Source: an uncultured Colwellia sp.
Lineage (GTDB): Bacteria > Pseudomonadota > Gammaproteobacteria > Enterobacterales > Alteromonadaceae
DNA: 64,000 bases
Direction of reading: 5' to 3'
Assembly (NCBI GenBank): GCA_913063325.1
Contig: CAJXYE010000008.1
Span: 1 to 64,000 of the forward strand
The position numbers were made by a program, and so were the translations under genes. Positions within the stretch are counted from its first letter, which is position 1; each line of letters opens with the position of its first letter. Below the pieces are notes generated by a model. It saw only the letters and a list, made by a program, of their open reading frames with translations, did no database searches and was not told the DNA's origin. This document shows, one piece after another, positions 1,322 through 30,196 of the stretch.

Positions 1322-1993
1322 ATGGTAAAAGTTCTAGTTGTTGAAGATGAGAGAGAGATTGCTGCGCAAGTGGCCAAGTATATTATCCGTGAGGGCTACA
1401 AGCCTATTGTCTTAAATTCCGGTGAAATGGTTATCGAGACGGTAAAAGAAGAGTTGCCCGATATTATTCTTTTAGATGTAATGCTTCCCGTTAAAGATGG
1501 CGTTCAGTGCTGTAAAGAAATCAGAGAGTTTTCTGATATACCAATCATTATGTTAACGGCTAAAAAAACAGAGAATGACAGGATTTCTGGCTTGCAAGCT
1601 GGTGTTGATGATTATGTTTGTAAGCCTTTTAGCGCTAAAGAGTTGATGCTTCGTATTCAAGCAATTTTAAAGCGCTCAGGTATCCTAAATAATCAAGAAA
1701 CATCAGGATTGAAATTAGATAAAAATGGTTTCTTTTTAAAGTTTAATAATAAAGAAACCAAGTTAACAAATTTAGAGTTTTCTTTACTTAATCTACTTAT
1801 GCAAAAACCAGGCAGAATATACTCTAGAGAGCAAATAATTGAGCTTGCTTATAAAAATGAACGGGATATTTCAGATAGAGCTATTGATAGTCATATTAAA
1901 AATATCCGAAAGAAGGTTCGTTCACTTAATATTGAAAATAATATTATTGAAACAACTTATGGTGCTGGCTTTCGTTATGTCCCTATCAGCTAA
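1322..1993 (+). CDS. OmpR-family response regulator, BaeR-like, with no kinase gene beside it
   Basis: The protein is 223 residues. Its N-terminal receiver domain (1-118) has the acidic pocket E8-D9-E10, phospho-acceptor D52 (ILLDVMLP), T79 and K101 (CKPF). A winged-helix OmpR DNA-binding domain follows (about 128-222) with the SREQ and DRAIDSHIKNIRKK recognition region. Wording such as IREFSDIPI-MLTAK and DDY-CKP is that of E. coli BaeR. It should bind promoters after phosphorylation. No histidine kinase adjoins it; a converging hydrolase gene overlaps its end by 8 bases. The three BaeS-like kinases at 7395-13736 are plausible partners, but that is an inference. Its ribosome-binding site is weak. 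Confidence 0.9.
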   Translation: MVKVLVVEDEREIAAQVAKYIIREGYKPIVLNSGEMVIETVKEELPDIILLDVMLPVKDGVQCCKEIREFSDIPIIMLTAKKTENDRISGLQAGVDDYVCKPFSAKELMLRIQAILKRSGILNNQETSGLKLDKNGFFLKFNNKETKLTNLEFSLLNLLMQKPGRIYSREQIIELAYKNERDISDRAIDSHIKNIRKKVRSLNIENNIIETTYGAGFRYVPIS

Positions 1994-2831
1994 CATTAGA
2001 TAACAACAGATCGTCCTTGTTCGGTGATAATTCAAATGACTCTATTACATTGAGGACTTTTCTCGAGTGTAATATTTTTTTGTGTCCAAGCTTGTTCGTC
2101 GTTACTAAAGTTGTTTTTGATGACAAAGTGAACTTTTCAATCATAGTAAAGGGAGCAAGGTCATCTTGAGTATCATGAATGATTTTAAGTTGGCCTTCAA
2201 AAGCGTTAAGTTTAGATATTGTGCAAAGCTCTGCTATAGGCATTCTTTCTCGTTTAGAGATATCACTAATGGATTGATTTAATAACTTTTCATCAAACCC
2301 TGAATGGTATGCTCGGTTTTGCAGAAATTGATAGATATCTAAAATAGGGGATATCAATAAAAGATCTTTATTATAACTTTTGAACCATTTACTGTTAGCT
2401 ATTGCTGATGCGCCAATACCATGAGCGATAACCATGTTTGGTGCAAAAAGATTAGCAGAAACATCATCAAATACCTTAATCATTTGTTGTAAATTACTAA
2501 ATTTTCCTTGGCTATTGCCGTGGGCTGGGAAATCAAAACATATTGTTGAATAACCTCGCTCAGCAAGTTTTTGCATCAGCGGCCAAAAATCAAAGGCACT
2601 GCCAGACCATCCGTGTACTAACCAAATACATTTACCTTCACCATATCGGTACGCATTTAGTTGCCCATAACGTGTTTTAACGTCAAATTTCTTAACATGC
2701 TTTGGCCAATTAGAAGGCTGTTTCTTCGGTTTAAATAGAGCATTTTTTGCTACTTTTAAAGCTAAATTAGGAACTAAAATCCTCAGGGTTTTAGTGCTTG
2801 CTTTTGTCCAAAATACTTTTAGTTTCTTCAT
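1986..2831 (-). CDS. Alpha/beta hydrolase-fold protein with the nucleophile replaced
   Basis: The protein is 281 residues. The fold is shown by the HGWSG oxyanion-type turn near residue 74, the FDFPAHG segment and a C-terminal acid/histidine region (HDTQDD, then NKLGHKK). At the nucleophile elbow, where the family has G-x-S-x-G, this protein reads A-H-G-I-G, so the serine is a glycine. It may be inactive as a hydrolase, use another residue, or act as a binding protein. There is no signal peptide, so it is probably cytoplasmic. The gene converges on the BaeR-like regulator with an 8-base overlap, so the two would make antisense ends if transcribed past their stops. Confidence 0.8.
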   Translation of the reverse strand: MKKLKVFWTKASTKTLRILVPNLALKVAKNALFKPKKQPSNWPKHVKKFDVKTRYGQLNAYRYGEGKCIWLVHGWSGSAFDFWPLMQKLAERGYSTICFDFPAHGNSQGKFSNLQQMIKVFDDVSANLFAPNMVIAHGIGASAIANSKWFKSYNKDLLLISPILDIYQFLQNRAYHSGFDEKLLNQSISDISKRERMPIAELCTISKLNAFEGQLKIIHDTQDDLAPFTMIEKFTLSSKTTLVTTNKLGHKKILHSRKVLNVIESFELSPNKDDLLLSNVS

Positions 2832-3255
2832 TATTTAATCTTTGATTCCATCTAAGTATTGATCTAGTTTACAAAGGAAATGTGAATTAAATAAGGATAA
2901 AACAAATAAAGAATTTCATTAGTCTCCATCAAAAATCCTCATTTGTTTTTTATCATTTACTTTGAATATTTAGATTTGATGGCAATGATTAGGTCAATAG
3001 TGATGTATCTTTTATGGAAGAAGGGCACAATTATTTTAACGACTTTGGTTTGCTTTTCTACACTTAGCCTTACCAGCTTGATTATTATTTAACATCATGT
3101 TTCATCGTGGCAATATGCTTTCACTCATGTTTTTCCAGTGAATCAATCAGTGCTATAGTTGATTTTTTTAGGAAAGGTTAACGGTATCACGACACTTTCT
3201 TTTAGGAAGTAACCTGCTACGCTCTTTTGTACTATTTTATTGATATGAGATAAAA
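2832..3255. other. Intergenic region between divergent genes
   Basis: These 424 bases separate the divergent hydrolase and deaminase genes and must hold both promoters. A 37-codon frame at 2979-3092 (+) would encode a single hydrophobic helix, but it lacks a ribosome-binding site and is not called. No strong hairpin or repeat is visible. Confidence 0.5.
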
Positions 3256-3840
3256 ATGACGCCTCTTTTTAATGAACAAACAGATAAAAATGAAGCCGTT
3301 CTAAATGCTATTGCACATATGCCTACCCAAAGTTTATCTACTTTGATGGGTAGTGATTTTACTCTAGAACTCACCGATATCGACTTTATGCGCATCGCCG
3401 TATTGCTTGCGAAAAAAAGTTATGATGAAGGTGGTTGCCCTATTGGTGCGGTTATTATTGATAACAAGACCAGAAATATTGTAGGTAAAGGCCATAATAC
3501 GCTTATTCAAGAAGACCACCCTTACAACCATGGTGAAACTTCAGCTATGCGCGATGCTGGTAGGATAGACTTTAGCCGAACTTCATTATTTACTACCCTT
3601 AGCCCTTGTGATGTTTGTGCAACATTATTATATATGAGAGGAGTAAATCGCGTGGTAGTCGGCGACATAACCAATGCATCAGGTAATGAAGCACTTTTGC
3701 GTGATAAAGGTGTTCAAGTTGATATCTTAGAGGATCAACAAGGCATCTCACTCTACAGTCAATTTCGTCGAGAAAAGCCAGATCAAGATTTAGAGGATTG
3801 GCAAGGGCTAAGTGCCTTGTGCAATCATATAATCGTATAG
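3256..3840 (+). CDS. Cytosine deaminase-like zinc enzyme (yeast FCY1 type)
   Basis: This 194-residue protein belongs to the cytidine/deoxycytidylate deaminase fold. The zinc site is H92-G-E94, with E94 as proton shuttle, and P117-C118-D-V-C121. The GHNTLIQ segment, the TTLSPCDVC block and a C-terminal stretch around EDW resemble fungal cytosine deaminase, which converts cytosine to uracil. It is unrelated in fold to E. coli CodA. Relatives also act on guanine or other nucleobases, so the substrate is tentative. It is about 35 residues longer at the N-terminus than FCY1; an internal start (M31 or M45) is possible. The TGAGAT upstream of 3256 is a weak ribosome-binding site. It looks monocistronic. 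Confidence 0.82.
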   Translation: MTPLFNEQTDKNEAVLNAIAHMPTQSLSTLMGSDFTLELTDIDFMRIAVLLAKKSYDEGGCPIGAVIIDNKTRNIVGKGHNTLIQEDHPYNHGETSAMRDAGRIDFSRTSLFTTLSPCDVCATLLYMRGVNRVVVGDITNASGNEALLRDKGVQVDILEDQQGISLYSQFRREKPDQDLEDWQGLSALCNHIIV

Positions 3841-4094
3841 GTAACTAGGTAGTAGCTTTCGTGAGTAAACTAAAATAGCAACAACATTTATTTCAGAAAA
3901 TAAGCATATTGTCCATTAGCGACATTGTCTTTATTTTAATCATTTTCTTATTCCCATCTAATATTTTTATCCTCAGTGCATGCACAATGATCAGTTATTA
4001 ATTAGTGGTGTTTCCGCAGGTGAAACGATTATTTTAAAATGCGAGTTTAGTAAAGTATTTAACGAAGTAAAGCTAACAGTAAAGGGTAATTATA

Positions 4095-6443
4095 ATGAAA
4101 TTCTTTGCAGGAAAACTAACCATATTACCAATAATAATATGTTTAATGATGGTTTTATATTCCACTGTGAGTATTTCTCATACACAGGATAAAAATGGTA
4201 AAACATTAACCGAACATAATGCCCTGTTTCATAAAATAGGAGCACACCCGAATTATCCTTATTTTGATAAAAATTTGATTTGCCCTGATGGGGAGTTAAC
4301 AGATAAAGAAGAAAATAATTATCAAGCAATGCTACCTACAGGCTCAGTAATTAGCAGTCAACGAGAGAAGCTTGCTTCTTTACTTGATAGTCACAATTTA
4401 GGTGATGTGCCCCCTGCGCCTATCGTTCGAGATAGTTTGGTTAAGTTGGGCCGTTATTTGGCCTTTGATAAATTACTCAGTGGTAATCGTGATATAGCTT
4501 GCATGAGTTGTCACCATCCTAATGTATTTACGGGGGATGAACGTATGCTTGGTTTTGGTACTGGGGCACATTCGACACCCGAAGCAAAAGAGAGAGGGCG
4601 TATAGCATTAGGCTTAAAAATTAATGAGGCAAATGAATTTTCAGATCGCTTGTTATCATTGGGTACCGATAGAACCGGATATCTAGATACGGTCATTTCA
4701 CGGCATACTCCGCCTTTATATAATTTACATGCTTATGATAATTTATTTTGGGATGGCCGAATTGAATACCAAGTAGCTACTGAAGTATCAACAGGTCCCT
4801 TTTATGCAAGAGATAGCAGTCAGCTCATGCGCCGTGTAAGTAGTGTTTCTGTTGATGGCTATGCCAATAATGGCAATATAAAAATATTTAATGAATACCG
4901 CTCGAAAGGCACTGTAGCTTCACCGGTTTGGAAAAATAATCAGCTAATTGATAGCGATGTCGTTACTGTACTAGGAGAGCTTAAGTTTTTAGGAGAAATT
5001 GAGCAGGTAAGTGACAATGCTACTTTATATGAAGTGAGTACGCCTGCAGGTGATGAGCTAAAAACAATATCATCAACGCTTGAGTTTGGTATTGTCTCAG
5101 CTTTACCACTTTTTCCTATGCTTTCACATGTTGAGATGATTGGTAAAAACCTAACAGGGTATGAGTACCCAAAAGATGGAAGTTGTCCTTCGTCGAGTGA
5201 AAATGACATTGCTGCAAGCTCGAACGAACCGGGAAGTGAAACCCTAAATGTATGGACTGCTCTGATTAAACGTTTAAGTTGTGAGGCACCAGACTACTTA
5301 GTTCATTTATCTGGCGCCTACCCAGATGTTGATGATTGGACTGATGTCAATGCGGGTCATATTGCTAATGCTATAGCAGGTTACATGATTGATGAGTTTA
5401 GCTCTTCTAACACACCTTTAAGTGAGTTTAGAAAAGCAGTGAAAGCTGATATCCCTTATCAAGATATTGATGTGCTTACTCGGGGCCAAGTATTAGGTGC
5501 AATCCGCTTTATAGAGGTAGGTTGTGCAAATTGCCATTCTGGGCCTTTATTCTCTGATTTTGATTTTCATAATACAGGCTTAGCGCAATTGGGCCCTGGA
5601 AAAATTGATGATATAGAAACCATGAATGCAATGCTTACTCCTCAAAATAGCAATGCCCCGAATGATGGCAATAATCTCTTTACTGGGGACTTAGGTCGTA
5701 AGCACCATCAAGCAACGGCAGGAAAGTTTACCTTTAGGACTTCACCTTTGATAAATGTTGCTGAAACTTGGACTCGTGGTCATGCAGGACAATATTTAAA
5801 GCTAGATGATTTTATTGAGCATTATCGTGATCCAATTACAGCATATGTGAATTATGGGCAATGTTTTAGCGGTCCCTTAGGTGGGCAGGTAGGCGGTGCA
5901 ACAACAAATGGTAGTGATAGTTATGGATTTGCTGCAGCCAATGGTGTTGGTAGTGAGCTCCTAGCTATGCACTGGGATTCTGAAGGCAAGTATAATGAGC
6001 AAAATCCACATGATGATGAGATCATTACTACACTTGATGTAGAGGTAAAAAACCTAACCAATACCCATAATGGTACTGTGATGACGCGTCTAGATGTGAA
6101 GGCTATCTCTCAATTTTTGAACGCATTAACGAGTAAAGAGGTATGTGATAACTCTTGGCCATTAAGCTCGGATGGTCGTAGAGATGTATCTAACGACCCA
6201 ACTAATGCTAGTGATCCTTATTATCATTATCAGCAAGCAGTAGTTAGCCCGCCAATAATGAAACGTATTAAAAAAGTCGGTTCAAGTGGTGACGGTAGTA
6301 GCGTTTTGTTCAATAGAAATTCGGTTAAGGATATTCCAAGAATTGAGACAAAAAACAATAGTTATAGTTATATAGACTTATCCCACCCTATTAGTGGTTT
6401 GCCAGTCGATTGGTTTTATCGTGTTGCATGTGCGGCAAATTAG
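4095..6443 (+). CDS. Di-heme cytochrome c peroxidase/MauG-family protein, enlarged
   Basis: The protein is 782 residues. An N-terminal hydrophobic signal (about 1-28) sends it to the periplasm. Two haem c attachment sites are visible: C136-M-S-C139-H140 and C477-A-N-C480-H481. Around them are the usual family segments, such as LGRYLAFDKLLS before the first site, FWDGR after it, SGPLFSDFDFHNTGL after the second, and LINVAETWTRGHAG nearer the C-terminus. Classical bacterial cytochrome c peroxidases are about 320-350 residues with their two sites roughly 150 apart. Here the sites are 341 residues apart, so a large insertion separates them. Members reduce hydrogen peroxide or carry out MauG-like oxidations; the substrate is unknown. 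AAAGGG lies 9 bases before the ATG. Confidence 0.85.
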   Translation: MKFFAGKLTILPIIICLMMVLYSTVSISHTQDKNGKTLTEHNALFHKIGAHPNYPYFDKNLICPDGELTDKEENNYQAMLPTGSVISSQREKLASLLDSHNLGDVPPAPIVRDSLVKLGRYLAFDKLLSGNRDIACMSCHHPNVFTGDERMLGFGTGAHSTPEAKERGRIALGLKINEANEFSDRLLSLGTDRTGYLDTVISRHTPPLYNLHAYDNLFWDGRIEYQVATEVSTGPFYARDSSQLMRRVSSVSVDGYANNGNIKIFNEYRSKGTVASPVWKNNQLIDSDVVTVLGELKFLGEIEQVSDNATLYEVSTPAGDELKTISSTLEFGIVSALPLFPMLSHVEMIGKNLTGYEYPKDGSCPSSSENDIAASSNEPGSETLNVWTALIKRLSCEAPDYLVHLSGAYPDVDDWTDVNAGHIANAIAGYMIDEFSSSNTPLSEFRKAVKADIPYQDIDVLTRGQVLGAIRFIEVGCANCHSGPLFSDFDFHNTGLAQLGPGKIDDIETMNAMLTPQNSNAPNDGNNLFTGDLGRKHHQATAGKFTFRTSPLINVAETWTRGHAGQYLKLDDFIEHYRDPITAYVNYGQCFSGPLGGQVGGATTNGSDSYGFAAANGVGSELLAMHWDSEGKYNEQNPHDDEIITTLDVEVKNLTNTHNGTVMTRLDVKAISQFLNALTSKEVCDNSWPLSSDGRRDVSNDPTNASDPYYHYQQAVVSPPIMKRIKKVGSSGDGSSVLFNRNSVKDIPRIETKNNSYSYIDLSHPISGLPVDWFYRVACAAN

Positions 6444-6482
6444 AGTATTCAATTGGTTAAGAGAAAATATGGGAGAGGTTTA

Positions 6483-6516
6483 AGAGCATAACGAGTGTTT
6501 GCTATGCTCTATTTTA
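6483..6516 (+). terminator. Stem-loop terminator after the di-heme cytochrome gene
   Basis: An 8-base stem (AGAGCATA / TATGCTCT) with a 12-base loop is followed by ATTTT. It lies between two converging genes and suits the plus-strand cytochrome transcript. Confidence 0.5.
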
Positions 6517-6560
6517 CTGATAGATACTTGCTAATTATTTCTTTTGTATTGGGTAAGCGT

Positions 6561-7193
6561 TTAATTTCTCAATAGATTCGTTACTTTACTCTTTCGGCGC
6601 AAGGCAATTAATCCAGCAAATCCAAATAATAATGCACTTGTTGGCTCTGGCACACTAATAGGATCATTTTCAGGTAAGGGATCTGGGTAGAAAGCATCAT
6701 CATATGGGTGCTGGTTAAAAGCAACATTGGTAATGGTATTTACATGACTTAGGTTCAACTCACCTTCAGAATACTTTGCCGCTGAGTCTGTAAAGCTTAT
6801 ATCTGTTTCACTAAAGTGATAGTCGCCAGTAAGCATATAAAAGCCAAATACATCGCCATTTAAATAGTTATAATCAATTATCTGCTCGCCATTCCAACTA
6901 TAAATTACGTCTTTTGGGGTGTTGTAAAACATGTCAGCATAAAATACATCATTTCTTAATATTTCAGTACGTTCAGGCACTAAAGTATAAAGTGTCTTTA
7001 AACCCCAAGAGTTTTTAAAGTAAATGCCAAAGTCTGATATTGTTCCAAAAGTACTGGTTATTTTCATGTAAGTACGGTCTCTACTATCTAGTGCAAATAG
7101 CCCATCCCCTGTGTGTATTAACCCTGCACTTACAAAGCCTATATGTGAGGTTGCTGCTAATAATAGCGCAGGTAATTTAATCCCTATCTTCAT
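6561..7193 (-). CDS. PEP-CTERM sorting-domain protein
   Basis: This 210-residue exported protein has a signal peptide (about 1-23, ending GFVSAG). Its C-terminal tripartite sorting signal reads VPEPTSALLFGFAGLIALRR, that is a PEP motif, a hydrophobic helix and basic residues. Such tails are cleaved by exosortase (EpsH/XrtA family) and usually go with exopolysaccharide production; no exosortase is in this window. The central part (about 25-175) has no motif I recognise. The ribosome-binding site AAGGAAA sits 6 bases before the ATG. The gene is transcribed toward the cytochrome gene and is followed upstream by a 200-base gap that should carry its promoter. Confidence 0.88.
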   Translation of the reverse strand: MKIGIKLPALLLAATSHIGFVSAGLIHTGDGLFALDSRDRTYMKITSTFGTISDFGIYFKNSWGLKTLYTLVPERTEILRNDVFYADMFYNTPKDVIYSWNGEQIIDYNYLNGDVFGFYMLTGDYHFSETDISFTDSAAKYSEGELNLSHVNTITNVAFNQHPYDDAFYPDPLPENDPISVPEPTSALLFGFAGLIALRRKSKVTNLLRN

Positions 7194-7394
7194 GGCGTTT
7201 CCTTTTTAAATGACGAAGTAAATATTCAGGGAAAGTCAGTGTCGCTCTATTGCTTTTCTAATTGCAATATTTTGCATAAATTGAAATTTCCCTGTTTAAC
7301 TTTGGCAATTTTAGGAAAAGAGTAAGGATAAAATATGGAGTAATTCAAGGTATACACATTTATACAGCTTTATTATTAAGTATTAGAGATACCT

Positions 7395-9407
7395 TTAAAC
7401 AGGTAAGGTTATAACAACCTTAAGACCACCTAAATTTGACTGTTCAGCAAATATTGTTCCGCCATGCTCTTTAATTAAGCTCTTACAGATTGCTAATCCT
7501 AATCCTGAGCCACCAGTTTCTCTGCTGCGTGAACTTTCTACACGATATAAGCGTTCAAAAATAGACACTAAATCTTTATCAAGTACTGCAGGTGCACTAT
7601 CTTCTATTGATAAATAAAGAGTATTGTCTTTCACTCTCGAAGATAATTTAACTTGTCCTGGTTTATCTGTGTATTTAATACTATTGCTGAGTAAGTTAAT
7701 AAACACCTGCTTAATTCTATCTTTATCGTAGTTAACAACTAAGTTACTGGGTATATTTTTATCTATTTCAAAGGTAAGTTTGTTTTTATTAACAAATTGT
7801 TTTAACTCACATTCCCAAAGATCCAAGGTGCTATTAAGCTCAAAAGGTTCAACATTTAGTTGTAAGGCACCAACATCTGATTGCGCTAATTGATGAATAT
7901 CATCAATTAGGTGTTGAATATCAATGATTTTATTATCTAAAGCGTCATAACTTGCTTGTACATCTTCTTCTAGATCGTCTTTAAGTGATTCAACTTGAAG
8001 TTTCAATACCGTAAGGGGAGTGCTAAGTTCATGGGAAACGTCAGCAAGTAGTTTATTTTTTTTAGTTAACAGTTCATCCATGAAATGATTTTCTTTGATG
8101 ACTAATTTTTTTCGTTGTATTTGTAAATAGGAAAACCCAAGTAAGAACACCACGATAAAAAGGGTTGTTCCTAGAACTATGGCCAGTTTCTGCTCTAAAA
8201 TTATATTATCTAGTTGTTTTAAATTATTATCAAAAATTTGCGCAGCTTGTATCGTAGATTGTTTAACAAAGTTGTTTTTAGACTGCCTTTCTTTATCAAT
8301 TAATTTAAATGCCGATTTAGTAATATTCGTCGGCTTATTATTCATAAGACCAGAAATCAGTAATACTTCTTTTTTAATCGGTTTCTTATTAGGAAATAGT
8401 TGTTCCACTTTTTTCAATATTTGATAGCTTTGTTCTATCTTTCCTACTCTGAAATAAGCGATGCTGAGTAACTCATAAGTAGCTTGAATATAGGAAATAT
8501 TTTGACTGTTTGTTGTTTCTTTTAACCCGGCCTCTAAAAATATAATACTTTGTGGCCAATCCTCTTCTAGTTGTGCCACTTTGGCCGATAAGTAGTAGAA
8601 TTTAAGCATTGCACCAATGTATTTAGGCTGCTCTTTAGAAAACTCCTTAAGTTCAACTAAATGTTGCTTAGCTAAATCGAGATCTACTAATGCAGTGCTG
8701 TAATGGATAGCATTGATAATCGAGGCGTACACACTATTCATGTCATTAGTGGCTGCAAATGACTGGTGAGCAAGTGCATTATATTCATATGCTTTATCAT
8801 AAATTAATGCGCGAAAAGAAAGGCTTGCTGCTTGGTTGTAAATAATTTGTTTAATGATTGGTTCAAGTTTTTGATTTTTTGCAATATCAAAAGCTTCATC
8901 AAATAACTTAAGGCTCTTTGATATGCCTTGTTCTTTATTTTGTAAACATTTGGCGTAATAGGCGATAGACTTTGCGATTAGACTAGGTTGAGCTATTTCC
9001 CTTGAGATCAATAAAGCCCGCTCTCTATCTTCACAAGGAGTGGCATTGTAATAATCAATACTGCCAGCGGCTATAGAGCGTTCAATAAGTAATTTAACCA
9101 ATAACTCAGAGGCTGGTAATTTATGTTCTTTATGGAGTTCAATGCCCTTAGTAAAGGCTATTACAGCATCGTTAAGTTGACGTTGCTCTTCATGATTTTC
9201 GCCTCGTAAAAACCAGTACAGGCTTTGTTCCGAGTAGCTAAAGTGCTTTAATTGAGTTTCTGCCTCTTGTAAAAAACTTAATTCATCAAGGTTATTACTT
9301 GCCAGTTTAAGTTGGTTTTTAAACTCAATAAAAGACTGTCCAAACGATGCTGAACTCACAAAGAGTACTGAACAAAGGATTATTTTAATAAGGAGTAAAA
9401 TGTTCAA
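7395..9407 (-). CDS. TPR-type membrane sensor histidine kinase with BaeS-like core (paralogue 1)
   Basis: The protein is 670 residues. It has a signal peptide or first helix (1-24), a long helical TPR-like sensor (about 25-400) outside the membrane, one transmembrane helix (about 408-428), a short coiled coil and the kinase core. The phospho-acceptor is H459 in ADVSHELSTPL. The ATPase domain has the N box NLLSNSIKYTD, the IEDSAP turn, the FERLYRVE segment and the G2 loop GGSGLGLAI. DSAP and FERxYR are hallmarks of BaeS. The start is TTG at 9407, with AGAGAG 5 bases upstream and no nearby ATG. It is separated by 270 bases from paralogue 2 and has no regulator gene next to it. Confidence 0.9.
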   Translation of the reverse strand: MNILLLIKIILCSVLFVSSASFGQSFIEFKNQLKLASNNLDELSFLQEAETQLKHFSYSEQSLYWFLRGENHEEQRQLNDAVIAFTKGIELHKEHKLPASELLVKLLIERSIAAGSIDYYNATPCEDRERALLISREIAQPSLIAKSIAYYAKCLQNKEQGISKSLKLFDEAFDIAKNQKLEPIIKQIIYNQAASLSFRALIYDKAYEYNALAHQSFAATNDMNSVYASIINAIHYSTALVDLDLAKQHLVELKEFSKEQPKYIGAMLKFYYLSAKVAQLEEDWPQSIIFLEAGLKETTNSQNISYIQATYELLSIAYFRVGKIEQSYQILKKVEQLFPNKKPIKKEVLLISGLMNNKPTNITKSAFKLIDKERQSKNNFVKQSTIQAAQIFDNNLKQLDNIILEQKLAIVLGTTLFIVVFLLGFSYLQIQRKKLVIKENHFMDELLTKKNKLLADVSHELSTPLTVLKLQVESLKDDLEEDVQASYDALDNKIIDIQHLIDDIHQLAQSDVGALQLNVEPFELNSTLDLWECELKQFVNKNKLTFEIDKNIPSNLVVNYDKDRIKQVFINLLSNSIKYTDKPGQVKLSSRVKDNTLYLSIEDSAPAVLDKDLVSIFERLYRVESSRSRETGGSGLGLAICKSLIKEHGGTIFAEQSNLGGLKVVITLPV

Positions 9408-9679
9408 CGGGACTCTCTTAACGCTAAAAACATTGATGCGGCTTTAGCTATCACTAGTGGTTATTCCTGAAGCCTGCAGAACGATAAAATACAGTGAATT
9501 TATTTAATTAGCCGTGGACATTAACATAAATGTTCCTATTTTTCTCTGCAATTTCTCGCAAGGCTATTAGCTGCGAGGAAGGGCGGTTTACGGTTAGTTT
9601 ACAGCAAGAGCATTTCTAGACTATTTGGTCACATGCAGTTGATTGAGGGTAACTCTTTCGACTGTGTGTGTTAAGTAAA

Positions 9680-11698
9680 TTAATTTACAGGCAACTTTAT
9701 TACAATTTTTAGACCTCCTAAGCTTGAATGCTGGGCGTATATGCTACCACGATGTTCGGTAATCAAACTTTTGCAAATTGCCAAACCTAAGCCTGAGCCG
9801 CCAGTTGTTCGGCTCCTTGAGTTTTCAATGCGGTATAATCGTTCAAATATATTGCTTAAATCTTCATCGGAGACACTTGGTGAGCTATCTTCGATGGAAA
9901 TATTTATAATGTCCTCTTGAAGTGTAGCACTGAGTCTAATTTTTCCTGGTTTATCAGTATATTTTATACTGTTATTGAGTAAATTGGCGAAGATCTGTTT
10001 TATTCTGCCTCTATCCCAGTGCACTATTAGCTGCTTGGGTAACTCTTTATTAATTTCAAATGATAATTTATTTTGGATAACAAACTGTGTTAATTCGCTC
10101 TGCCACTTTTCAAGTGTCTCATTTAGCTCAAAAGAGTCAAAATTAAGCTGTAATGCGCCAACATCGGACTGTGCCAATTGATGAATATCATCAATGAGAT
10201 GTTGTATATCATCTAATTTACTATCTAATGCATCATAGCTAACTTGTACATCATCTTCTAAATCATCTTTTAGTGATTCAACTTGAAGCTTTAGCACAGT
10301 AAGTGGTGTACTAAGTTCATGTGAAACATCAGCTAAGAGCTGGTTTTTTCTACTGAGTAAGTCATCGGTTAATTGCTTTTCTTTGTTGGCGAGTTGTTTA
10401 CGTTGCTGCTGAAAGTACGCATAAGTGCCTAAACTGATGGCAATAAAAAACGCTATGAGCACGCTATATATAAAACGCTGTTTTAGTTGGAAGTTTTCTA
10501 GTTGCTCAAGCTTGTGATCATTTTCTTGGGCGATATAAGCGGTAGACGATTTAATAAAGTGACGCTTATTGTTTCTTTCCTTATCAAGTAAAGCAAAGGC
10601 TGAATTTAGGGCTTGTTGTTTCTTGTTATCTTCAAGTGTTGCTATAGCGATAATTTCTTTTTTTATCGCTGGATTACCTGGGAACTTCTCTTTAAGTTCG
10701 AGTAGTACGCGTTTACTTTCGGTAAACTTATTAGCTCTAAAATAAGCAATGGCGAGTAATTCATAGTTTGCTTGAATATAAGCCGGTCTATTCATATTCG
10801 CTTGCTCGGTAACAGCTAATTCAAAGAACTTAATACTTCTTAACCAATCACCTTGTATATAAGCCAATTTACCTGATTGGTAATGTGCGCTAAATAGCGC
10901 ATCTTTATAGTCAGTATGCTCTGTGGCAAACTGATACAAGCTATCTAAATGTTGTTGGGCTAGCTCGAACTCGCCCATATTACTCGCATTAACGACTACG
11001 CTAGATAGCATATACTGTATACCTAAGTGATTGCCTTCTTCTTGCCACTTATGAAGGGCTAATAAATTATACTTATAAGCTTTGTTGGCAATTGAAGCTT
11101 TAGAGTACAAAAGCGCCGCACGATTATAAATGGTTGCTTGTTGATCGAGTGTTAATAATGAATTTTGTGCAATAGTGGTTGCTTCTTCAAGTAAGGGGAT
11201 TGCCAATGCCAGTCCTTTATTTGAGCTATATAAGCATTGAGCATTTGAGGCGAGTACTTCGGCTAACCTTGCTTCATTATTGCTAAGTTGTCGCTCAACT
11301 GCCAGCGATCGTGCGGTATCTACACAATAGTCGTTATTGCCTGGATCATGGTTATATATACTTGAAGATCTTTCATTATATATCGCGGCGAGTAAGATTG
11401 AGGGGACTGTCGTGTGAGCTGTTAATAGTTCAAGTGCTTCGGTCTGAGAGTGAATAGACTTTTCCACTAAGCCTAAACTAAGCTGTACCTTACCAACAAG
11501 GTAAAAATAATGTGCTTTGTCAACGGCTGAAAAATGCTTAACTTGCGCTGAAGACTGTTCTAACAGTTGCAGTTTTTTAACCGAACTTTTAGTTATAGCA
11601 AGTCGCTGCTCTAAGGTTTCAAAAGTAGAAGCTTGTGCTACGTTAAGCAAGGTTAAACCTAGCAGTAGTGATAGTATTATGGGCAGTGATCTTGTCAT
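9680..11698 (-). CDS. TPR-type membrane sensor histidine kinase with BaeS-like core (paralogue 2)
   Basis: I choose the ATG at 11698 (672 residues). The stop of paralogue 3 ends one base before it, which suggests translational coupling, and a clean signal peptide (MTRSLPIILSLLLGL, ending VAQA) then begins at residue 1. A TTG at 11716 would add six residues and has no ribosome-binding site. The architecture matches its neighbours: exported helical TPR-like sensor (about 22-395), one membrane helix (near 405-425), phospho-acceptor H460 in ADVSHELSTPL, N box NLLNNSIKYTD, IEDSSP turn and GGSGLGLAI. The kinase core is almost identical to paralogues 1 and 3, while the sensor has diverged widely, so the three probably read different cues. 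Confidence 0.9.
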   Translation of the reverse strand: MTRSLPIILSLLLGLTLLNVAQASTFETLEQRLAITKSSVKKLQLLEQSSAQVKHFSAVDKAHYFYLVGKVQLSLGLVEKSIHSQTEALELLTAHTTVPSILLAAIYNERSSSIYNHDPGNNDYCVDTARSLAVERQLSNNEARLAEVLASNAQCLYSSNKGLALAIPLLEEATTIAQNSLLTLDQQATIYNRAALLYSKASIANKAYKYNLLALHKWQEEGNHLGIQYMLSSVVVNASNMGEFELAQQHLDSLYQFATEHTDYKDALFSAHYQSGKLAYIQGDWLRSIKFFELAVTEQANMNRPAYIQANYELLAIAYFRANKFTESKRVLLELKEKFPGNPAIKKEIIAIATLEDNKKQQALNSAFALLDKERNNKRHFIKSSTAYIAQENDHKLEQLENFQLKQRFIYSVLIAFFIAISLGTYAYFQQQRKQLANKEKQLTDDLLSRKNQLLADVSHELSTPLTVLKLQVESLKDDLEDDVQVSYDALDSKLDDIQHLIDDIHQLAQSDVGALQLNFDSFELNETLEKWQSELTQFVIQNKLSFEINKELPKQLIVHWDRGRIKQIFANLLNNSIKYTDKPGKIRLSATLQEDIINISIEDSSPSVSDEDLSNIFERLYRIENSRSRTTGGSGLGLAICKSLITEHRGSIYAQHSSLGGLKIVIKLPVN

Positions 11699-11699
11699 G

Positions 11700-13736
11700 C
11701 TAATGATTATGCTCAAAGTGAGGAGCGAGAAGGGGGATTTGTATAATAACTTTCAAGCCGCCTAAGTCTGAATGTTCAGCATAAATTTCACCACCATGAG
11801 CCTCAATTAAACTTTTACAAATAGCTAAACCTAACCCTGAGCCACCTTTGTCCCTGCTTCGTGAACCTTCAACACGGTATAAACGTTCAAATATGTTTGT
11901 TAAATCATCCTCAGATACACTCGGTGCACTATCTTCAATTGATAACAATAGTATGTTCTTTTTAGCTTTGGCTATTAATTTAACTTCTCCCGGTTTATCT
12001 GTATATTTGATACTATTAGTGAGTAAGTTAGTAAAAATTTGTTTGATCCGCTCTTTGTCCAAGTTTACGATTAAACTAGTCGGTAACTCTCTATTTATCT
12101 CAAATTCAAGTTTGTTTTTATTAACGAACTTAGTTAGTTCTTCTTGCCAACAATCGAGTGTTTCATTTAGCTCAAACGGCTCAATATTAAGCTGTAAAGC
12201 ACCCACGTCCGACTGGGCTAGCTGATGAATATCATCAATAAGATGTTGAATATCATCTAGTTTATTGTCTAAGGCATTGTAAGTAACATGTACATCTTCT
12301 TCTAAGTCATCCTTGAGTGACTCAACTTGAAGTTTTAATACCGTAAGTGGCGTGCTTAGTTCGTGAGATACATCGGCCAGTATTTGATTTTTTTTACTTA
12401 GTAATAAAGCTGCAGCCTCTTTTTCATGCTTTAATAATTTGCGTCGTTTGAATTGAATATACAAGAAAAGGAGCAAAAGGGTTATGATCAGAATGGCAAT
12501 AACAGCTAAGTAGTTAAATCTTTGTTTTAACAATAAGTTATCAAGTTGTTTTAAGTTATCATTATGAATTTGAGCTGCGGTTGCAGTTGATTTTTTTACA
12601 AAATCTTTCTTTTTTGATTCTGACTGTTCAAGCAACTTATAACTATGATTAAGTGCAGCTTGCACTTGGCCATTTTTTACCATTATTAAGGGAGTAACTT
12701 CTTTTTTAATGGGAGGTAAACCAGGAAATTCTTGTTCGAGTAATGACAATACTTGGAAACTTTTTGTTGGTTGATTATTTCGATAATGCATTAAACTGAG
12801 CTGTTCGTACGCTGCTCTTATATATCCAGTGTTGGATGTTAAATTTTTAAATTCGAGAGTTTTTTCAAATAATAATATTGCTTTCAACCACTTGTTTTGT
12901 GATCTTGCTAAGACAGCTGAATGGTAATTTATATAAAAAGGGGAGTCACTAAACTCTGAATGTTGCTGAGCAAATATTGATAATTCATCGATATGCTGTT
13001 GAGCTAGTTCGTATTTGGCCATATCAGTTGCAGCAACAATCAGGTTTCTTAACATAAAGTAAACACCTTGATAGTCTTTTGCTAGCAGCCATTTATCCTT
13101 TGCAATGAGGTTATATTGATAAGCTTTATCAAAAATAGCCAGTTTTCGGTATATCAGTGCTGTTTCATTATAAATTGTTGCCTGCTCTTGATCTTCTAGT
13201 TGATTCTTCTGAGCTAAAGATATCGCATGATCTAATACTGCTAAGGCCTTTGGAATGTTGTTAGTTTTTTCATATATACATGTACTTTGTTGACTTAGAG
13301 TAGTCGCAAGCCTTGCAGTTTCATTCTTTAGATTGCTAAGTAATTTGACGGCTTTTTCAATGTCGTCACAATACGTTAGTTGTGATGATTCAACTTTGTA
13401 AATACTGTTTGAACGTACAATGTAGCTTTGGGCCAAAAGACGAGGGAGTTTTGCACTATTATTTTCTATGATCGCTATTGCTTGGGTTGCAGAGTCGATA
13501 GACGCTTGAAATAAACTATTTTCTTGTTGGGTCAAAGATAATAAACGCCAGTATTTTGCTTGCTCAGCAATTGGGGCTGTGTCAAATGTTAGCTGCGCTT
13601 TTTCAAGTGTAGCTAGTTTTACTTTTACATCAGATTCATTCTGAATTAATTTTTCTAATGCTGTAAACGATTGAGCTATTGCAACATTTCCAAATAAAAT
13701 AAAAAAAACTAACAAACTGCAAAAAAAGTTAATCAT
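11700..13736 (-). CDS. TPR-type membrane sensor histidine kinase with BaeS-like core (paralogue 3)
   Basis: The start at 13736 gives 678 residues and puts the signal peptide (MINFFCSLLVFFILFG, ending VAIA) at the N-terminus, matching the two paralogues. A longer frame begins with TTG at 13784, about 11 bases after AGGAG, or ATG at 13775, and cannot be excluded. Order: signal peptide, helical TPR-like sensor (about 22-395), membrane helix (near 400-422), H458 in ADVSHELSTPL, N box NLLTNSIKYTD, IEDSAPSV, GGSGLGLAI. It is the first gene of the likely two-gene operon with paralogue 2. The 287-base gap to the divergent gene at 14024 should carry its promoter. Confidence 0.88.
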   Translation of the reverse strand: MINFFCSLLVFFILFGNVAIAQSFTALEKLIQNESDVKVKLATLEKAQLTFDTAPIAEQAKYWRLLSLTQQENSLFQASIDSATQAIAIIENNSAKLPRLLAQSYIVRSNSIYKVESSQLTYCDDIEKAVKLLSNLKNETARLATTLSQQSTCIYEKTNNIPKALAVLDHAISLAQKNQLEDQEQATIYNETALIYRKLAIFDKAYQYNLIAKDKWLLAKDYQGVYFMLRNLIVAATDMAKYELAQQHIDELSIFAQQHSEFSDSPFYINYHSAVLARSQNKWLKAILLFEKTLEFKNLTSNTGYIRAAYEQLSLMHYRNNQPTKSFQVLSLLEQEFPGLPPIKKEVTPLIMVKNGQVQAALNHSYKLLEQSESKKKDFVKKSTATAAQIHNDNLKQLDNLLLKQRFNYLAVIAILIITLLLLFLYIQFKRRKLLKHEKEAAALLLSKKNQILADVSHELSTPLTVLKLQVESLKDDLEEDVHVTYNALDNKLDDIQHLIDDIHQLAQSDVGALQLNIEPFELNETLDCWQEELTKFVNKNKLEFEINRELPTSLIVNLDKERIKQIFTNLLTNSIKYTDKPGEVKLIAKAKKNILLLSIEDSAPSVSEDDLTNIFERLYRVEGSRSRDKGGSGLGLAICKSLIEAHGGEIYAEHSDLGGLKVIIQIPLLAPHFEHNH

Positions 13737-14023
13737 CGGATTGCCTAATGGGGTGGAATAATTCGTTTTTAACATGACTGGCAATTTGATAATTACTCCT
13801 AATCATTGATTTTGGTTTGTTCGTGAACTGCATTAAAGACAAACACTCTATAAAAATGGCTACGCTAATAGGTAAAACTATAAACCAATTCTCTTCAATT
13901 AAATATTTTCATTTACATAAACTCCACAATTTCTCCTCAATGTTTTGTTAATTTTCACATTCGCTAAATGTTTATAAAATAAGCGTTTTAAATTTAATTA
14001 ATCAAATATGAGAGGTAATGCAT

Positions 14024-14536
14024 ATGTTAAAGTTTTTTATAATAATATTTTCTGTAGCGTTTAGTTCTGCTGCATTAGCGGATGCTATTGAGTGGCGTTA
14101 TGACAGTTCAAAACCTTCAAACTGTAGAATTTGGGCTGGGTATATTGATGGAGATAAGCTTCGTGAAACGTGTAAAGTACAAGACTATGGCACCTATAGA
14201 GCAGCTGGCACAACGGTGCGAATGAACTGTGAAAGCAGTGGTCAAGTAGGTCACCTGAGTGATGGTAGTTCTTCTATTACACTTCTTGCTAATTGTGACG
14301 GAATCAAAATAAAAGAAGCGAGAGCGTATAAAACACGCGGCAAAAACAAAAGTAAAGGCACCTCATTATTTGGTCGTAGAAAAAATAGTGACGCTATCAG
14401 TCATGAATTATCAGGCAATACCCAATGGGATGATTGCTTTAAAAGAGTGGATATCTCAGGAGACGAAATAAGAATTTTAGTAAATTCCAAGCATCAGAGC
14501 AACAGCAGTTGTAAACGAGTAGTCTATAACGATTAG
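14024..14536 (+). CDS. Exported six-cysteine protein of unknown function
   Basis: The start is set at the ATG at 14024 (170 residues) because AGAGG ends 8 bases before it; the ATG at 14018 is only 2 bases from that site. A signal peptide (MLKFFIIIFSVAFSSAALA) is followed by a mature part of about 150 residues. It has six cysteines (in NCRIW, ETCKV, MNCES, ANCDG, DDCFK and SCKRV), an even number that would suit three disulphides in the periplasm. A basic linker (KTRGKNKSKG) sits near residue 110. I do not recognise the family. It is divergent from the kinase array and shares its 287-base regulatory gap, so it may be a target or partner of that system; this is inference only. Confidence 0.7.
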   Translation: MLKFFIIIFSVAFSSAALADAIEWRYDSSKPSNCRIWAGYIDGDKLRETCKVQDYGTYRAAGTTVRMNCESSGQVGHLSDGSSSITLLANCDGIKIKEARAYKTRGKNKSKGTSLFGRRKNSDAISHELSGNTQWDDCFKRVDISGDEIRILVNSKHQSNSSCKRVVYND

Positions 14537-15354: not shown

Positions 15355-15687
15355 ATTGCTGAAAGTGAGGCTTTTCGTTTCAATATACCTATTTGTCATA
15401 CAAAGAGAGTTTGATATAAAATTTAACACCTCCTCGTTTAGAATGCTCAGTCCTGATATCACCTAGGATGCATTCAACAAGGCTAAAGAATAAATAACAA
15501 AAGTACTCCTCCTATTTCAGAGTTCCTGACATGAATTTATGGAGGGTACTTTTTCTTAAAGTCTTATTTCTCCACAAATCCTCCTAACTCTTTCGTTATC
15601 TTAATAGTAATAGCTGGTAATTGCCTCTGTGTTATGGATAACAGGGGCTTGTTGTACAAAAGGAATTGATATGTATGGTTGGTGTAT
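15355..15687. other. Intergenic region with a decayed kinase stub and a hairpin
   Basis: This gap of about 330 bases contains the kinase remnant 15389-15484. It also has an imperfect inverted repeat with arms AAAGTACTCCTCC and GGAGGGTACTTTTT at about 15499-15555 that could act as a terminator. The start region of the giant gene, with a six-codon leader frame, is at its right end. Confidence 0.5.
15389..15484 (-). pseudogene. Decayed C-terminal stub of a fourth BaeS-like kinase
   Basis: Read on the minus strand, 31 codons and a stop translate to SLVECILGDIRTEHS followed by KRGGVKFYIKL. This lines up without gaps with the end of the kinases at 7395-13736, for example SLIEAHGGEIYAEHSDLGG in paralogue 3, with about half the positions identical. 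Nothing upstream of the SLVE segment can be aligned with confidence, so the G2 loop and the rest of the protein are lost. It has the same strand as the three intact paralogues and lies just beyond two plus-strand genes. This suggests that the array once had four members. Confidence 0.6.
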
Positions 15688-15691
15688 ATGA
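15671..15691 (+). CDS. Possible six-codon leader peptide overlapping the giant gene start
   Basis: The frame ATG TAT GGT TGG TGT ATA TGA encodes MYGWCI. AAGGA lies 6 bases before it, the only good ribosome-binding site here. Its TGA overlaps the ATG at 15688 (ATGA), an arrangement typical of translational coupling. Chance is possible for so short a frame. Confidence 0.35.
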   Translation: MYGWCI

Positions 15692-18600
15692 AAAAGTTAA
15701 TGGCTAGACTAATTTTATCTTGTGGTGTTTTTATTCAAAAACTTATCAAAATCAGTTTGTTAAGTATCATCCCAATAGCTACAGCATCAGCCGCTCCTAC
15801 AGATAGCGGTTTAATTTACCACCAATTTAATATTTTATTTGCTTATGCACCTGGCTCTGGCTGTGTAGGTAACGCAAATAGGTTGAGTGATGTTAATTTA
15901 ACATCATTATCCGATATAAAATTTGACAGTATTTCTCCTGTTAAATCTCAATCTACTGATTTCTCTATTGGCAACCGTCCTAGTGAAAGTTGTGATACTT
16001 ATTTTGCTGATTATTTTGCTGGTGAAGTTTATATCCCCGCAGATGAAACCGTTACTTTTTATTTGAACTCGGGTGACGGTAGTAAATTATGGATTGATGA
16101 AAACGAGGTTGTTGATAATGACTTTGTCGGTGGCACCAAAGAAGTCAATGGCAGCATTTATTTAACTGAAGGTTGGCATTATATCGAGGTTAAGTACTTC
16201 AATCGTAATGGTAGCGAACAATTAACGGTTAGTTATGACTCAACTACACTTGGCGGAAAACAAGAAATCCCCAACTCAGCACTTCGTATAGGTGGTGCTT
16301 TAGACCCTGATGATGATGGTGTTGTAAATTATTATGATGTCGATAATGACGGCGATGGTTTAATTGAAATATCAACGTTGGCTGAATTGGATGAAGTTCG
16401 AAATAACTTAACGGGGACCGCGTTATTTGGCAATAGCACAGGTTGTGACTCAGGCTGTACAGGTTTTGAACTAACAAACAATTTAGATTTTGATACTTCT
16501 GGTGATGGCATTGTTGATGTTAATGATGCCAATGGTGCTTTCTGGAATGCCGGTGATGGCTGGTTACCTATTGGTCGTACAAGTAGTAATGCTTTTAAAA
16601 CGACTTTTGAAGGTAATAATTTTACTGTTAATAATTTAACCATTAACCGCAGTATAGAAGATGGCGTTGGTTTTTTTGGTTTTACTAGAGCTGGCTCTAT
16701 AATCAATAATTTTGGTTTAACTCATACACGAGTGGAAGGTAATAATGGTGTTGGTGCGTTAATTGGTAAGGCTGATAATTCGGTTGTTAATAATGTTTAT
16801 AGCACTGGTAAAGTTAGCGGTAACTATGAAATAGGTGGTCTAATCGGTTGGGCAAACACTGTGTCGATTACTACTGCTCGTCATATTGGCTATATTACAG
16901 GTGTTGATGAATTTGTTGGTGGCATTGTAGGCCGTGCGGGTATCAATAGCGCTATTGAAAATGCTTTTAATATAGGAAGTGTTGTCGGTGGTGGTCGTGT
17001 TGGTGGCATAGCTGGTACAAGTGATAGCGACATAAGTGATGTTTATGTTGCTGGTTATGTTAATGGCGATCAGCGCGTAGGTGGTATTACTTCGGGTATA
17101 AACTCGGCCCATTTAGAGCGGTCTTATGTGGTTGCGCAAGTAACAGGTAACTTTGATACGGGGGCTATTCTCGGTTCAATTTTTGCACCTGATGCGGGTA
17201 TTTCGAGTAGCTACTGGTTAACTGGCATTGCAGAAACAGCCGTTTATTATAACCGAAATGTCCCTACTGAAATTACAGAGGTAAACTTAGCTGATTTAAC
17301 CTGTCCAGTTAGTGCTGGAGATAATGCTTGTAATGAAATCTTTTATGCTGATTGGGATGACTCAACGCCAATTTGGCAATTTGGTACTAACAATCAACTT
17401 CCGGCATTAATGCAAAATGCCTCAGCTTACTTTCTAGCTGATTTTGATGGCGATGGCGTTAGTGACCAAGTAGATGCTTTTCCAAGCATAACTATTGGCG
17501 CTTTGTTAGATAATGATAATGATGGTATTCCTGATGACTGTGATGCCAATTGCTTATCTACTGGCTTAGAAACTGATACCGATGATGATAATGACGGTGT
17601 TGACGATGATAGTGATGCATTTCCATTTGACCCTACCGAATCTGCTGATAATGATTTAGATGGTACTGGTGATAACGCCGATTTAGATGATGACAATGAT
17701 GGCGTTAATGATGACCAAGATGAATTCCCCTTTGATGCTGCAGAGTCCTCGGATACTGACGGAGATGGAGTTGGTGATAACGCCGATGTAGATGATGATA
17801 ATGATGGCTATATCGACAGTCAAGATAGTGCCCCTTTAAATTCTCTGTTACCTGGTTTAACTCCGATTCGCCAGCAAAGTGGTGATAATGCGGATACTCG
17901 ATTTGGCCAAGCAATCGCAAATATTGGTGATGTTGATGGTGATGGCGTTAATGATTTAGCAATTAGTGCCCACGAAGACGACAGTAACGGTTTTGATAAT
18001 AGCGGCTCTGTTCATGTGATGTCAGTCAAAACAGGGCAAATACTTTATAAAATCTATGGTGATGGTGAAGACGATAAACTCGCGGAAGAGATGATATCGG
18101 CACCTGATATGGATGGCGACAATATTGCTGATTTTTTAGTACGTAGGCAAGGCACAAATGGCGATAATATTGAATATGTTGAACTTTTTTCAAGTAAGGC
18201 GGGCACTTCCTTATTTAGCATTGTTATACCGAACAATTTAAATGTAAATAAGCTGGCTTTTATAGATGATCTCAACAGTGATGGTATTGCTGATATCTTA
18301 GTGACCTTACCAAGCTTTGATAATGTGCAAGATAATATTGGTGCGGTATTTATTTACTCAGGTGCAGACGGTAGTGAATTAAGTCATATCGAAGGCGAAG
18401 GCGGTTCTTTTGGTGATGAAATTGCGATATTAGGCGATATTAATGGTGACCTAATTACTGACTTTATTGTAAGTGCGAGCAGCTTTGATGGTCAAAATAA
18501 TAGAGCAGGGCGAATTTACGCATACTCAGGTGCTGACAATAAGTTTTTGTTTCAAATAGATGGACAAGAAACTAACCAAGAAATTGGTGACGAGATGGTT

Positions 18601-29365: not shown

Positions 29366-29470
29366 TAAAGAGTCTTAAAAATAATAAACGCTGTACCAGA
29401 TAGCTCTTAAGTAACTCATCAAGTTGCTTACAAGCAACCACAAGTAACTCACAAGTCATTAGGGAATATT

Positions 29471-30193: not shown

Positions 30194-30196
30194 CTC

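Follow-up and report, generated by a model that had tools for sequence, protein, structure and literature searches.

Three sensor kinases with a common BaeS-type core and a single BaeR-like regulator at a Colwellia locus: a probable many-to-one two-component network

The locus described here lies in a 64,000-nucleotide stretch of DNA from an uncultured Colwellia sp., bases 1–64000 of the 106,694-base contig C8 (hereafter the window). The host genome (G000) is a 4.88-Mb assembly of 126 contigs, 87.6% complete, with contamination given as 2.22%. The window encodes three histidine kinases, HK_C, HK_B and HK_A, in a head-to-tail array on the minus strand, and one BaeR-like response regulator (RR) at position 1322. 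All four genes, first reported in a preliminary description made from the sequence, are present and intact as judged by open reading frames (ORFs), Pfam and NCBIfam.

1322–1993, plus strand: BaeR-like OmpR-family RR, the proposed common output; E8/D9, D52, T79 and K101 are all there
7395–9407, minus strand: HK_A, 670 aa, BaeS-type core, phosphoacceptor His459, TPR-like sensor
9680–11698, minus strand: HK_B, His466; starts one nucleotide past the HK_C stop
11700–13736, minus strand: HK_C, His474; first gene of the HK_C-HK_B unit

The ORF list places the HK_B and HK_C starts at TTG codons (11716 and 13784); we adopted the ATG codons at 11698 and 13736, from which the proteins read MTRSLPI.. and MINFFCS.., respectively. 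HK_A starts with TTG, as is likewise the case in two relatives (G016 and G010, see below). The RR gene adjoins none of the three kinase genes, the nearest being 5.4 kb away.

Each kinase contains HisKA and HATPase_c domains with the phosphoacceptor histidine (Pfam), as expected for HisKA-type kinases. The best NCBIfam model is BaeS, which matches the core only with 203–211 bits, below the cut-offs of 500 (NF012163) and 603 (NF007837). Among the BaeS hallmarks named in the preliminary description, FERLYR and GGSGLGLAI occur in all three kinases, whereas DSAP is restricted to HK_A and HK_C and is replaced by DSSP in HK_B. Pairwise identity among the three falls from 88–90% in the dimerization and histidine phosphotransfer (DHp) region to 64–70% in the ATPase, 32–37% in the membrane and linker segments and 29–36% in the sensor. 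The strong divergence of the sensor halves is thus borne out; the near identity noted for the core applies to the DHp but overstates the likeness of the ATPase. The RR contains a receiver and a Trans_reg_C domain (Pfam), which places it in the OmpR/PhoB family, and the best NCBIfam model among those listed is BaeR (NF007982; 236 bits, cut-off 380). It is the sole Trans_reg_C match (E≤0.001) on the entire contig and, as had been claimed, the only OmpR-type regulator in the window. A HisKA_3 kinase (36470–37642) and a LuxR-type RR (37635–38318) form a separate pair there that is not OmpR-type.

Such similar cores might simply be the product of recent duplication or gene conversion among functionally unconnected kinases. 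A hint of local exchange comes from HK_A and G010_682, a kinase of Colwellia sp. 75C3, for which the proportion of differing synonymous sites (pS) is lower in the DHp (0.43) than in the sensor (0.80). Among the three window kinases, however, the DHp has a pS of 0.71–0.84 and a nonsynonymous counterpart (pN) of 0.04–0.06. With synonymous sites nearly saturated and the protein nonetheless conserved, the likeness does not reflect recent copying. Judged from these substitutions, the divergence of the window DHp regions is old and the protein is under strong constraint. Recent duplication or gene conversion was rejected for the window kinases, being largely refuted by the near-saturated synonymous sites, and is very improbable as an explanation of the array.

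The sensors had been described as exported and TPR-like (tetratricopeptide repeat). Export is putative, judged by eye from hydrophobic stretches. A Pfam scan of HK_A, HK_B and HK_C gave no TPR at E≤0.001, although a TPR_12 match is present in a 67%-identical relative. An AlphaFold model was computed for HK_A only, from 7 sequences. Its mean predicted local distance difference test (pLDDT) score is 74.5 and its predicted template modelling score (pTM) 0.47, with much of the DHp under 50. In this model, helical hairpins form a solenoid (block pLDDT 71–94 over residues 31–330), after which comes a helix of ∼100 residues. In Foldseek searches, the modelled solenoid aligns with the TPR proteins LGN/Pins (template modelling (TM) score by target 0.66–0.75), and the core with HK853, WalK and CpxA, the last at a large root-mean-square deviation. 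The TPR-like description of the sensor is thereby supported by the HK_A model, though not by Pfam. This helical solenoid stands in place of the PDC-type sensor that an excerpt of PMC8534201 gives for BaeS itself.

The locus was compared with those of Colwellia sp. 75C3 (G010), C. psychrerythraea GAB14E (G016), Colwellia sp. DT_20 (G065), an uncultured Colwellia metagenome-assembled genome (G008) and a further genome, G261. The RR is 92%, 88%, 81–82%, 77% and 60% identical to its orthologs in G010, G016, G065, G008 and G261, respectively. Across the window and the five relatives, the distance between the RR ortholog and kinases of this DHp type ranges from 55 bp to 8.4 kb. Intact kinases of this type number three in the window, two each in G008 and G016, and one each in G010, G065 and G261. 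The gap between the RR and the nearest kinase is 55 bp in G261, 0.94 kb in G010, 2.06 kb in G065, 2.66 kb in G016 and 8.4 kb in G008. Thus, the remark that the regulator has no kinase beside it is correct for the window but does not extend to the relatives. G010 also carries a broken kinase relic (L135:2570-3542), nearest to HK_C, spread over several frames, without the phosphoacceptor region and beside a relative of the giant gene described below.

A search of related genomes, as proposed in the preliminary description, showed that close RRs and close DHp regions co-occur. Among 39 genomes of the genus, RRs at least 77% identical and DHp regions at least 85% identical are found in the same four (G000, G008, G010 and G016); the next RRs are at most 56% and the next DHp 74% identical. 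This match would arise by chance with a probability of 1.2e-5 were the genomes independent, which they are not. At looser cuts, chosen after looking at the data (RR E≤1e-63, DHp E≤1e-12), the same six genomes have both, adding G004 and G006, and 33 have neither. In a quick tree of 45 RRs (from 64 sequences, 59 of them aligned), the six locus RRs lie on one side of a branch with a Shimodaira–Hasegawa-like approximate likelihood ratio (SH-aLRT) support of 96. For the kinases, 100 distinct sequences from the retrieved loci (>60 bits to the HK_C core) were reduced to 73 aligned (>110 bits) and to 53 in the quick tree (those >185 bits plus the kinase from contig C21 discussed below). The ten locus kinases form one clade there (support 83) and again in a careful tree of 17 cores (98/98), with the forks within the clade mostly unresolved. 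Rows labelled as G008 kinases in the alignments and trees were read from contig C107 (see below), the proteins being identical. In these trees, the clade of locus kinase cores has its counterpart in that of the RRs. This match, together with linkage and co-occurrence, suggests that several sensors converge on the 1322 RR, in agreement with the earlier proposal.

The 1322 RR stands out among the signalling genes of the host genome. Matches listed there number 84 for HATPase_c, 104 for the receiver and 24 for Trans_reg_C. Of the Trans_reg_C genes, 14 combine this domain with a receiver match, and all but two of them (12 of 14) lie within 1.8 kb of a HATPase match. Those two are the 1322 RR and C12:60956, the latter with a receiver under the Pfam cut-off (27.8 bits). 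It is conceivable that the kinases signal mainly via an unlinked regulator and that the 1322 RR, 5.4 kb off, is a chance neighbour: of the 104 receiver matches, 33 are more than 3 kb from any HATPase match, so that partners of another type could lie elsewhere in the genome. An OmpR-type RR is the usual partner of a BaeS-type core, and C12:60956 is the only other OmpR-type gene with a receiver match that lacks a kinase neighbour. Given also the linkage, co-occurrence and matching clades, we consider an unlinked main partner quite unlikely. A dedicated BaeS-type kinase elsewhere in the genome that pairs with the 1322 RR would speak against convergence of the three kinases on it. Contig C21 does encode a canonical-looking BaeS/BaeR pair, but the kinase adjoins its own RR (44% identical to the 1322 RR), and its DHp is only 31% identical to that of HK_C.

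Contig C107 (L053:1-11322) contains a second version of the locus, with the deaminase, two kinases and part of the giant gene. We rejected a count of five such kinases in the genome: C107 is 99.83% identical to G008 over all 11,322 bases and both kinase proteins are identical, while the window locus is only 69–76% identical to G008. C107 is probably a mis-binned contig, judged by this identity.

Further genes of the locus bear on what the RR may control.

1986–2831, minus strand: alpha/beta hydrolase (esterase), between the RR and the kinases; adjoins the RR also in G010, G016 and G065
3256–3840, plus strand: dCMP/cytidine-type deaminase, at the locus also in G008, G016 and G065; no good box upstream
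4095–6443, plus strand: di-haem cytochrome c peroxidase (MauG-like) protein, between the RR and the kinases
6561–7193, minus strand: PEP-CTERM protein with the C-terminus VPEPTSALLFGFAGLIALRRK; match of 20.0 bits, cut-off 20.7
14018–14536, plus strand: small protein, gene divergently oriented to HK_C; relatives (34% and 39%) at the G016 and G004 loci
14602: HEAT-like protein, upstream of HK_C
15679–27366, plus strand: giant 3895-aa protein with PA14, FG-GAP, HYR and bacterial surface Ig-like domains

Relatives of the giant protein adjoin these kinases in G008, G016, G010 and G261, with weaker matches in G004 and G006, and a counterpart of the PEP-CTERM protein (72.6%) sits between the two G016 kinases. 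ORFs of the 20-kb G065 region gave no match to either the giant or the PEP-CTERM gene. The di-haem peroxidase has no match among the compared locus ORFs of the relatives, and the small protein at 14018 gave no Pfam match at E≤1.

Direct repeats were first sought by eye in 32 upstream regions. The resulting pattern, TGNGGAGAANNTGNGGAGAA with up to three mismatches, has three matches in the window (upstream of HK_A, of HK_C/14018 and of the giant gene), compared with 0.27 expected; none of 100 shuffles reached three. An expectation-maximization (EM) search of 22 upstream regions of the relatives gave TTAGGAGAAAaTaTGGAGAA, a direct repeat of two 11-bp units, with a log-likelihood of 112 versus 57–71 in 6 shuffled sets run with fewer restarts. 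With equal restarts, the search recovered this repeat again, shifted and in the opposite orientation, at a value of 108, versus 62–68 in 6 Markov sets and 68–79 in 6 sets taken from a pool of 359 other upstream regions. The sites relevant to the window are as follows.

15568–15587, minus strand: best-scoring candidate RR box in the window (21.6), 111 bp ahead of the giant gene
13920–13939, minus strand: candidate RR box, 184 bp from the HK_C ATG and 98 bp from 14018; score 17.8
7323–7342, plus strand: third-ranked candidate RR box in the window (score 15.9), 130 bp ahead of the PEP-CTERM gene
9542–9561, minus strand: weak candidate box upstream of HK_A; three mismatches, score 11.0

At a score of 15.5, the window has three sites, while 200 first-order simulations have a mean of 0.27 and none has three. 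All three are upstream of locus genes; the 200-bp stretches preceding ORFs of at least 150 aa make up 10.7% of the window. The sites ranked fourth and fifth fall inside genes. In the relatives, which are the training set, sites scoring >19 precede kinases in G065, G008, G261 and G016 (the propeller kinase), the esterase in G010, G016 and G065, and the PEP-CTERM gene of G016. Scores are lower for the kinases with an HK_A-type sensor (A-type) in G010 (16.1) and G016 (12.3), for G008_673 (11.5) and for the RRs (7.6–14.8). The box unit holds TTCTCCA on its other strand, as does the BaeR consensus TTTTTCTCCATDATTGGC in the portion of PMC3799227 that gives it. Direct repeats of this kind, candidate boxes with the CTNCA/TTCTCCA core expected for BaeR, lie upstream of locus genes.

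Taken together, the comparative evidence makes it likely that the three kinases and the single RR form one local two-component network, which may control the kinases themselves and neighbouring genes. HK_A, HK_B and HK_C would sit in the membrane and sense different cues through their outer, TPR-like solenoids, and their shared BaeS-type DHp would pass phosphate to Asp52 of the RR. The phosphorylated RR would then bind the 11-bp direct repeat upstream of the HK_C-HK_B unit and 14018, of the giant gene and of the PEP-CTERM gene, and perhaps weakly upstream of HK_A. Bound in this way, it would control those genes, presumably by activation rather than repression; the sensing of ligands and a surface location of the products are likewise presumed. 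The RR appears to have been kept while sensors were gained, lost and exchanged on a constant core.

Several observations weigh against this network. A further BaeR-like RR (53%) occurs in G008, 7.7 kb beyond that of the locus and touching a kinase of its own. The match in six of 39 genomes depends on the cut: at 1e-60, G015 (3.4e-62) and G011 (1.0e-60) join on the RR side only, with RRs (45–46%) that adjoin 480-aa kinases of a different core type. The conserved DHp calls for caution. When pairs of kinases are binned by ATPase identity, mean DHp identity for locus versus other pairs is 0.88 versus 0.78 (ATPase 0.54–0.60) and 0.85 versus 0.81 (0.60–0.66), but 0.88 versus 0.90 (0.66–0.72) and 0.86 versus 0.93 (0.72–0.80) in the higher bands. 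As the locus DHp regions are about as alike as others at ATPase identities of 0.60–0.72 and less alike at 0.72–0.80, their conservation fits a common partner but does not prove one, and we did not accept it alone as proof. With regard to the box, the repeat was first spotted by eye in a set containing the window sequence, sites may be shared by descent, the HK_A box is only weak, and no window site above 8.4 lies upstream of the RR, esterase, deaminase, peroxidase or HK_B. Hits of a loose pattern average 6.6 per genome (4–10) in 5 RR-bearing genomes, compared with 3.9 (0–8) in 21 others, and are about equal in number to those of a reversed control. A genome-wide regulon was rejected: the loose pattern has 9 hits in the host genome and the reversed control 4, and the RR-bearing genomes show no clear enrichment. 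Zero-mismatch matches number five in the 5 RR-bearing relatives, four of them in the locus, and one in the 21 others; the only one in the host genome lies on C107.

A narrower network, in which only HK_A is the true partner of the RR while HK_B and HK_C signal to a different regulator or to none at all, was also considered. The HK_A sensor has orthologs in G016, G010 and G065 (75%, 60% and 63% identical, respectively), and an A-type kinase is the sole intact kinase beside the RR in G010 and G065. By comparison, the HK_B sensor has a best match of only 38% among the ten locus kinases, and an HK_C-like gene is broken in G010; the HK_C sensor is 68% identical to that of G008_673. However, the DHp regions of HK_B and HK_C are 90% and 88% identical to that of HK_A, with the same clade-specific residues; the RR persists in G008 and G261, whose loci have no A-type sensor, and HK_C has the better box. 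We therefore find a partnership confined to HK_A unlikely and favour the network of all three kinases.

The relatives show that this core is combined with sensors of different folds. Canonical TPRs are found in G008_701, Reg_prop and Y_Y_Y propeller sensors in G016_1066, G261_1061 and the more distant G004_1060, and divergent TPR-like sensors in the non-propeller others. G016_1066 has a DHp 94% identical to those of HK_B and HK_C despite a sensor of another fold. Over the 45 pairs of the ten locus kinases, DHp identity is 79–94%, while sensor identity is 49–75% within a type (8 pairs) and 8–38% between types (37 pairs, propellers included). Approximately unbiased (AU) tests rejected a single core clade of the three propeller kinases (p 0.0015), though not of two of them (p 0.057), and likewise rejected the four A-type kinases as a clade (p 0.027), though not HK_C plus G008_673 (p 0.118). 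These results favour sensor exchange without proving it.

A bolder and more doubtful possibility, to which the core-clade rejections lend support, is that the locus constitutes a natural sensor-exchange cassette. In such a cassette, the DHp would serve as a socket onto which whole sensors (three TPR-like types, canonical TPR and beta-propeller) are swapped by recombination, with the one RR left in place. Kinases also dimerize through the DHp, so that two different ones in the same cell might pair and combine their sensors; such mixed dimers are pure speculation on our part. If the cassette is real, the RR box would make the set of sensors self-regulating and tie it to the giant surface protein.

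Two further positions set the locus clade apart. At HK_C position 477 (HELxTP), the ten locus kinases have serine (7), glycine (2) or alanine (1), compared with arginine in all 63 other aligned kinases. In the RR, the second position is residue 83, shortly after Thr79: threonine is present there in all six locus RRs, while 53 others have mainly acidic residues (21 glutamates and 17 aspartates). The changes belong to one clade and perhaps to one event; our guess is that a salt bridge was lost. The locus, with the same regulator accompanied by one, two or three kinases, offers a natural experiment on adding inputs to one output. Unrelated sensor folds on one DHp raise the question of what a kinase must keep to retain its partner, including how the HELRTP arginine was lost together with the acidic residue of the regulator, and of whether paralogs that share a DHp dimerize with one another.

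Many-to-one signalling and TPR sensors on kinases are both already known. A passage of PMC12471899 names KinA-E to Spo0F and, in its wording, LuxN and LuxP to LuxU, and states that the kinases of such networks share homology in their phosphotransfer domains. Several kinases with different inputs on one receiver are common to these networks and the present locus, whose kinases have a near-identical DHp. In contrast, the kinases of the locus lie beside one DNA-binding OmpR-type RR, vary in number between relatives and carry unrelated sensor folds on the same core. The preliminary description named no described system with a large exported TPR sensor before a BaeS-type core; a TPR sensor on a histidine kinase is known. 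FimS of the FimS/FimR system of Porphyromonas gingivalis is a kinase with a periplasmic TPR-type sensor (excerpt of PMC11053733), and VbrK and VxrA of Vibrio have periplasmic TPR or TPR-like sensors (section of PMC8534201); where described in these sources, each system has one kinase, unlike the several sensors on a shared core seen here. That section also places Y_Y_Y in Bacteroides BT4663. Propeller kinases of the Reg_prop/Y_Y_Y type are absent from the window, but in G016 and G261 they have a BaeS-type core and stand beside the same RR clade as the TPR kinases. The envelope-stress system BaeS/BaeR supplies the closest curated models for core and regulator and the TTCTCCA of the candidate box; it differs in that scores here are far under the family cut-offs and that a canonical-looking pair exists separately on C21. 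A limited library searched for kinase expansion or domain shuffling, Colwellia TPR kinases and shared regulators yielded nothing pertinent.

TPR-BaeS kinases are also frequent in the wider family. Matches to HK_C (E≤1e-55) occur in 37 of 395 family genomes and 15 of 52 genera. Two candidates per genome were scored; of the 54 matches, 40 were fetched as regions and 7 were already in the set. A full-length BaeR-like RR lies within 2.5 kb in 21 of the 40 fetched kinase regions, in 18 of these within 10 bp of the kinase or overlapping it. TPR_12, HisKA and HATPase_c are present in all 38 scanned family kinases outside the locus group. The TPR-BaeS kinase with a BaeR-like RR is an ordinary module of the family. 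The window shares this architecture but differs in having three kinases and an RR 5.4 kb off, whereas the family RR mostly touches its kinase, and in lacking the HELRTP/HELRSP-type arginine found in all 63 aligned kinases outside the locus group. What stands out is several kinases of differing sensor types on one RR.

In six family regions (L154, L155, L158, L159, L169 and L134), a short receiver-only ORF of 121–133 aa flanks the TPR-BaeS kinase on the side away from the BaeR-like RR, giving a receiver-kinase-regulator trio. Eleven others (L141, L142, L145, L147, L150, L152, L161, L166, L167, L168 and L170) have a TPR-BaeS kinase and no receiver ORF of at least 100 aa in the fetched 18 kb; these kinases are possible further orphan inputs to a distant regulator.

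Efflux-type genes, for which BaeR is known according to an excerpt of PMC3799227, lie near the locus in three of the six genomes and are of differing types. The window has HlyD/ABC/MacB genes at 28289–32580, past the giant gene; G065 has HlyD/MacB/ABC genes before the kinase, and G010 TetR/HlyD/RND genes beyond the RR (flanking coordinates in the relatives' regions, L139:5867-10345 and L064:14128-19200). A box scan upstream of the efflux-type genes found none (best 9.5), and they are therefore excluded from the proposed controlled set.

A box copy with one mismatch is located in the host genome at C26:57321 (L199), 86 bp upstream of a gene for a 196-aa protein that ends in VPVPTPASVLLFGFALISLVRFKRKK; this protein has a PEP-CTERM-like ending and no Pfam match. 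Sulfotransferase genes are found between the kinase and the giant gene in G016 (L063:3864-4736) and G261 (L140:13523-14350).

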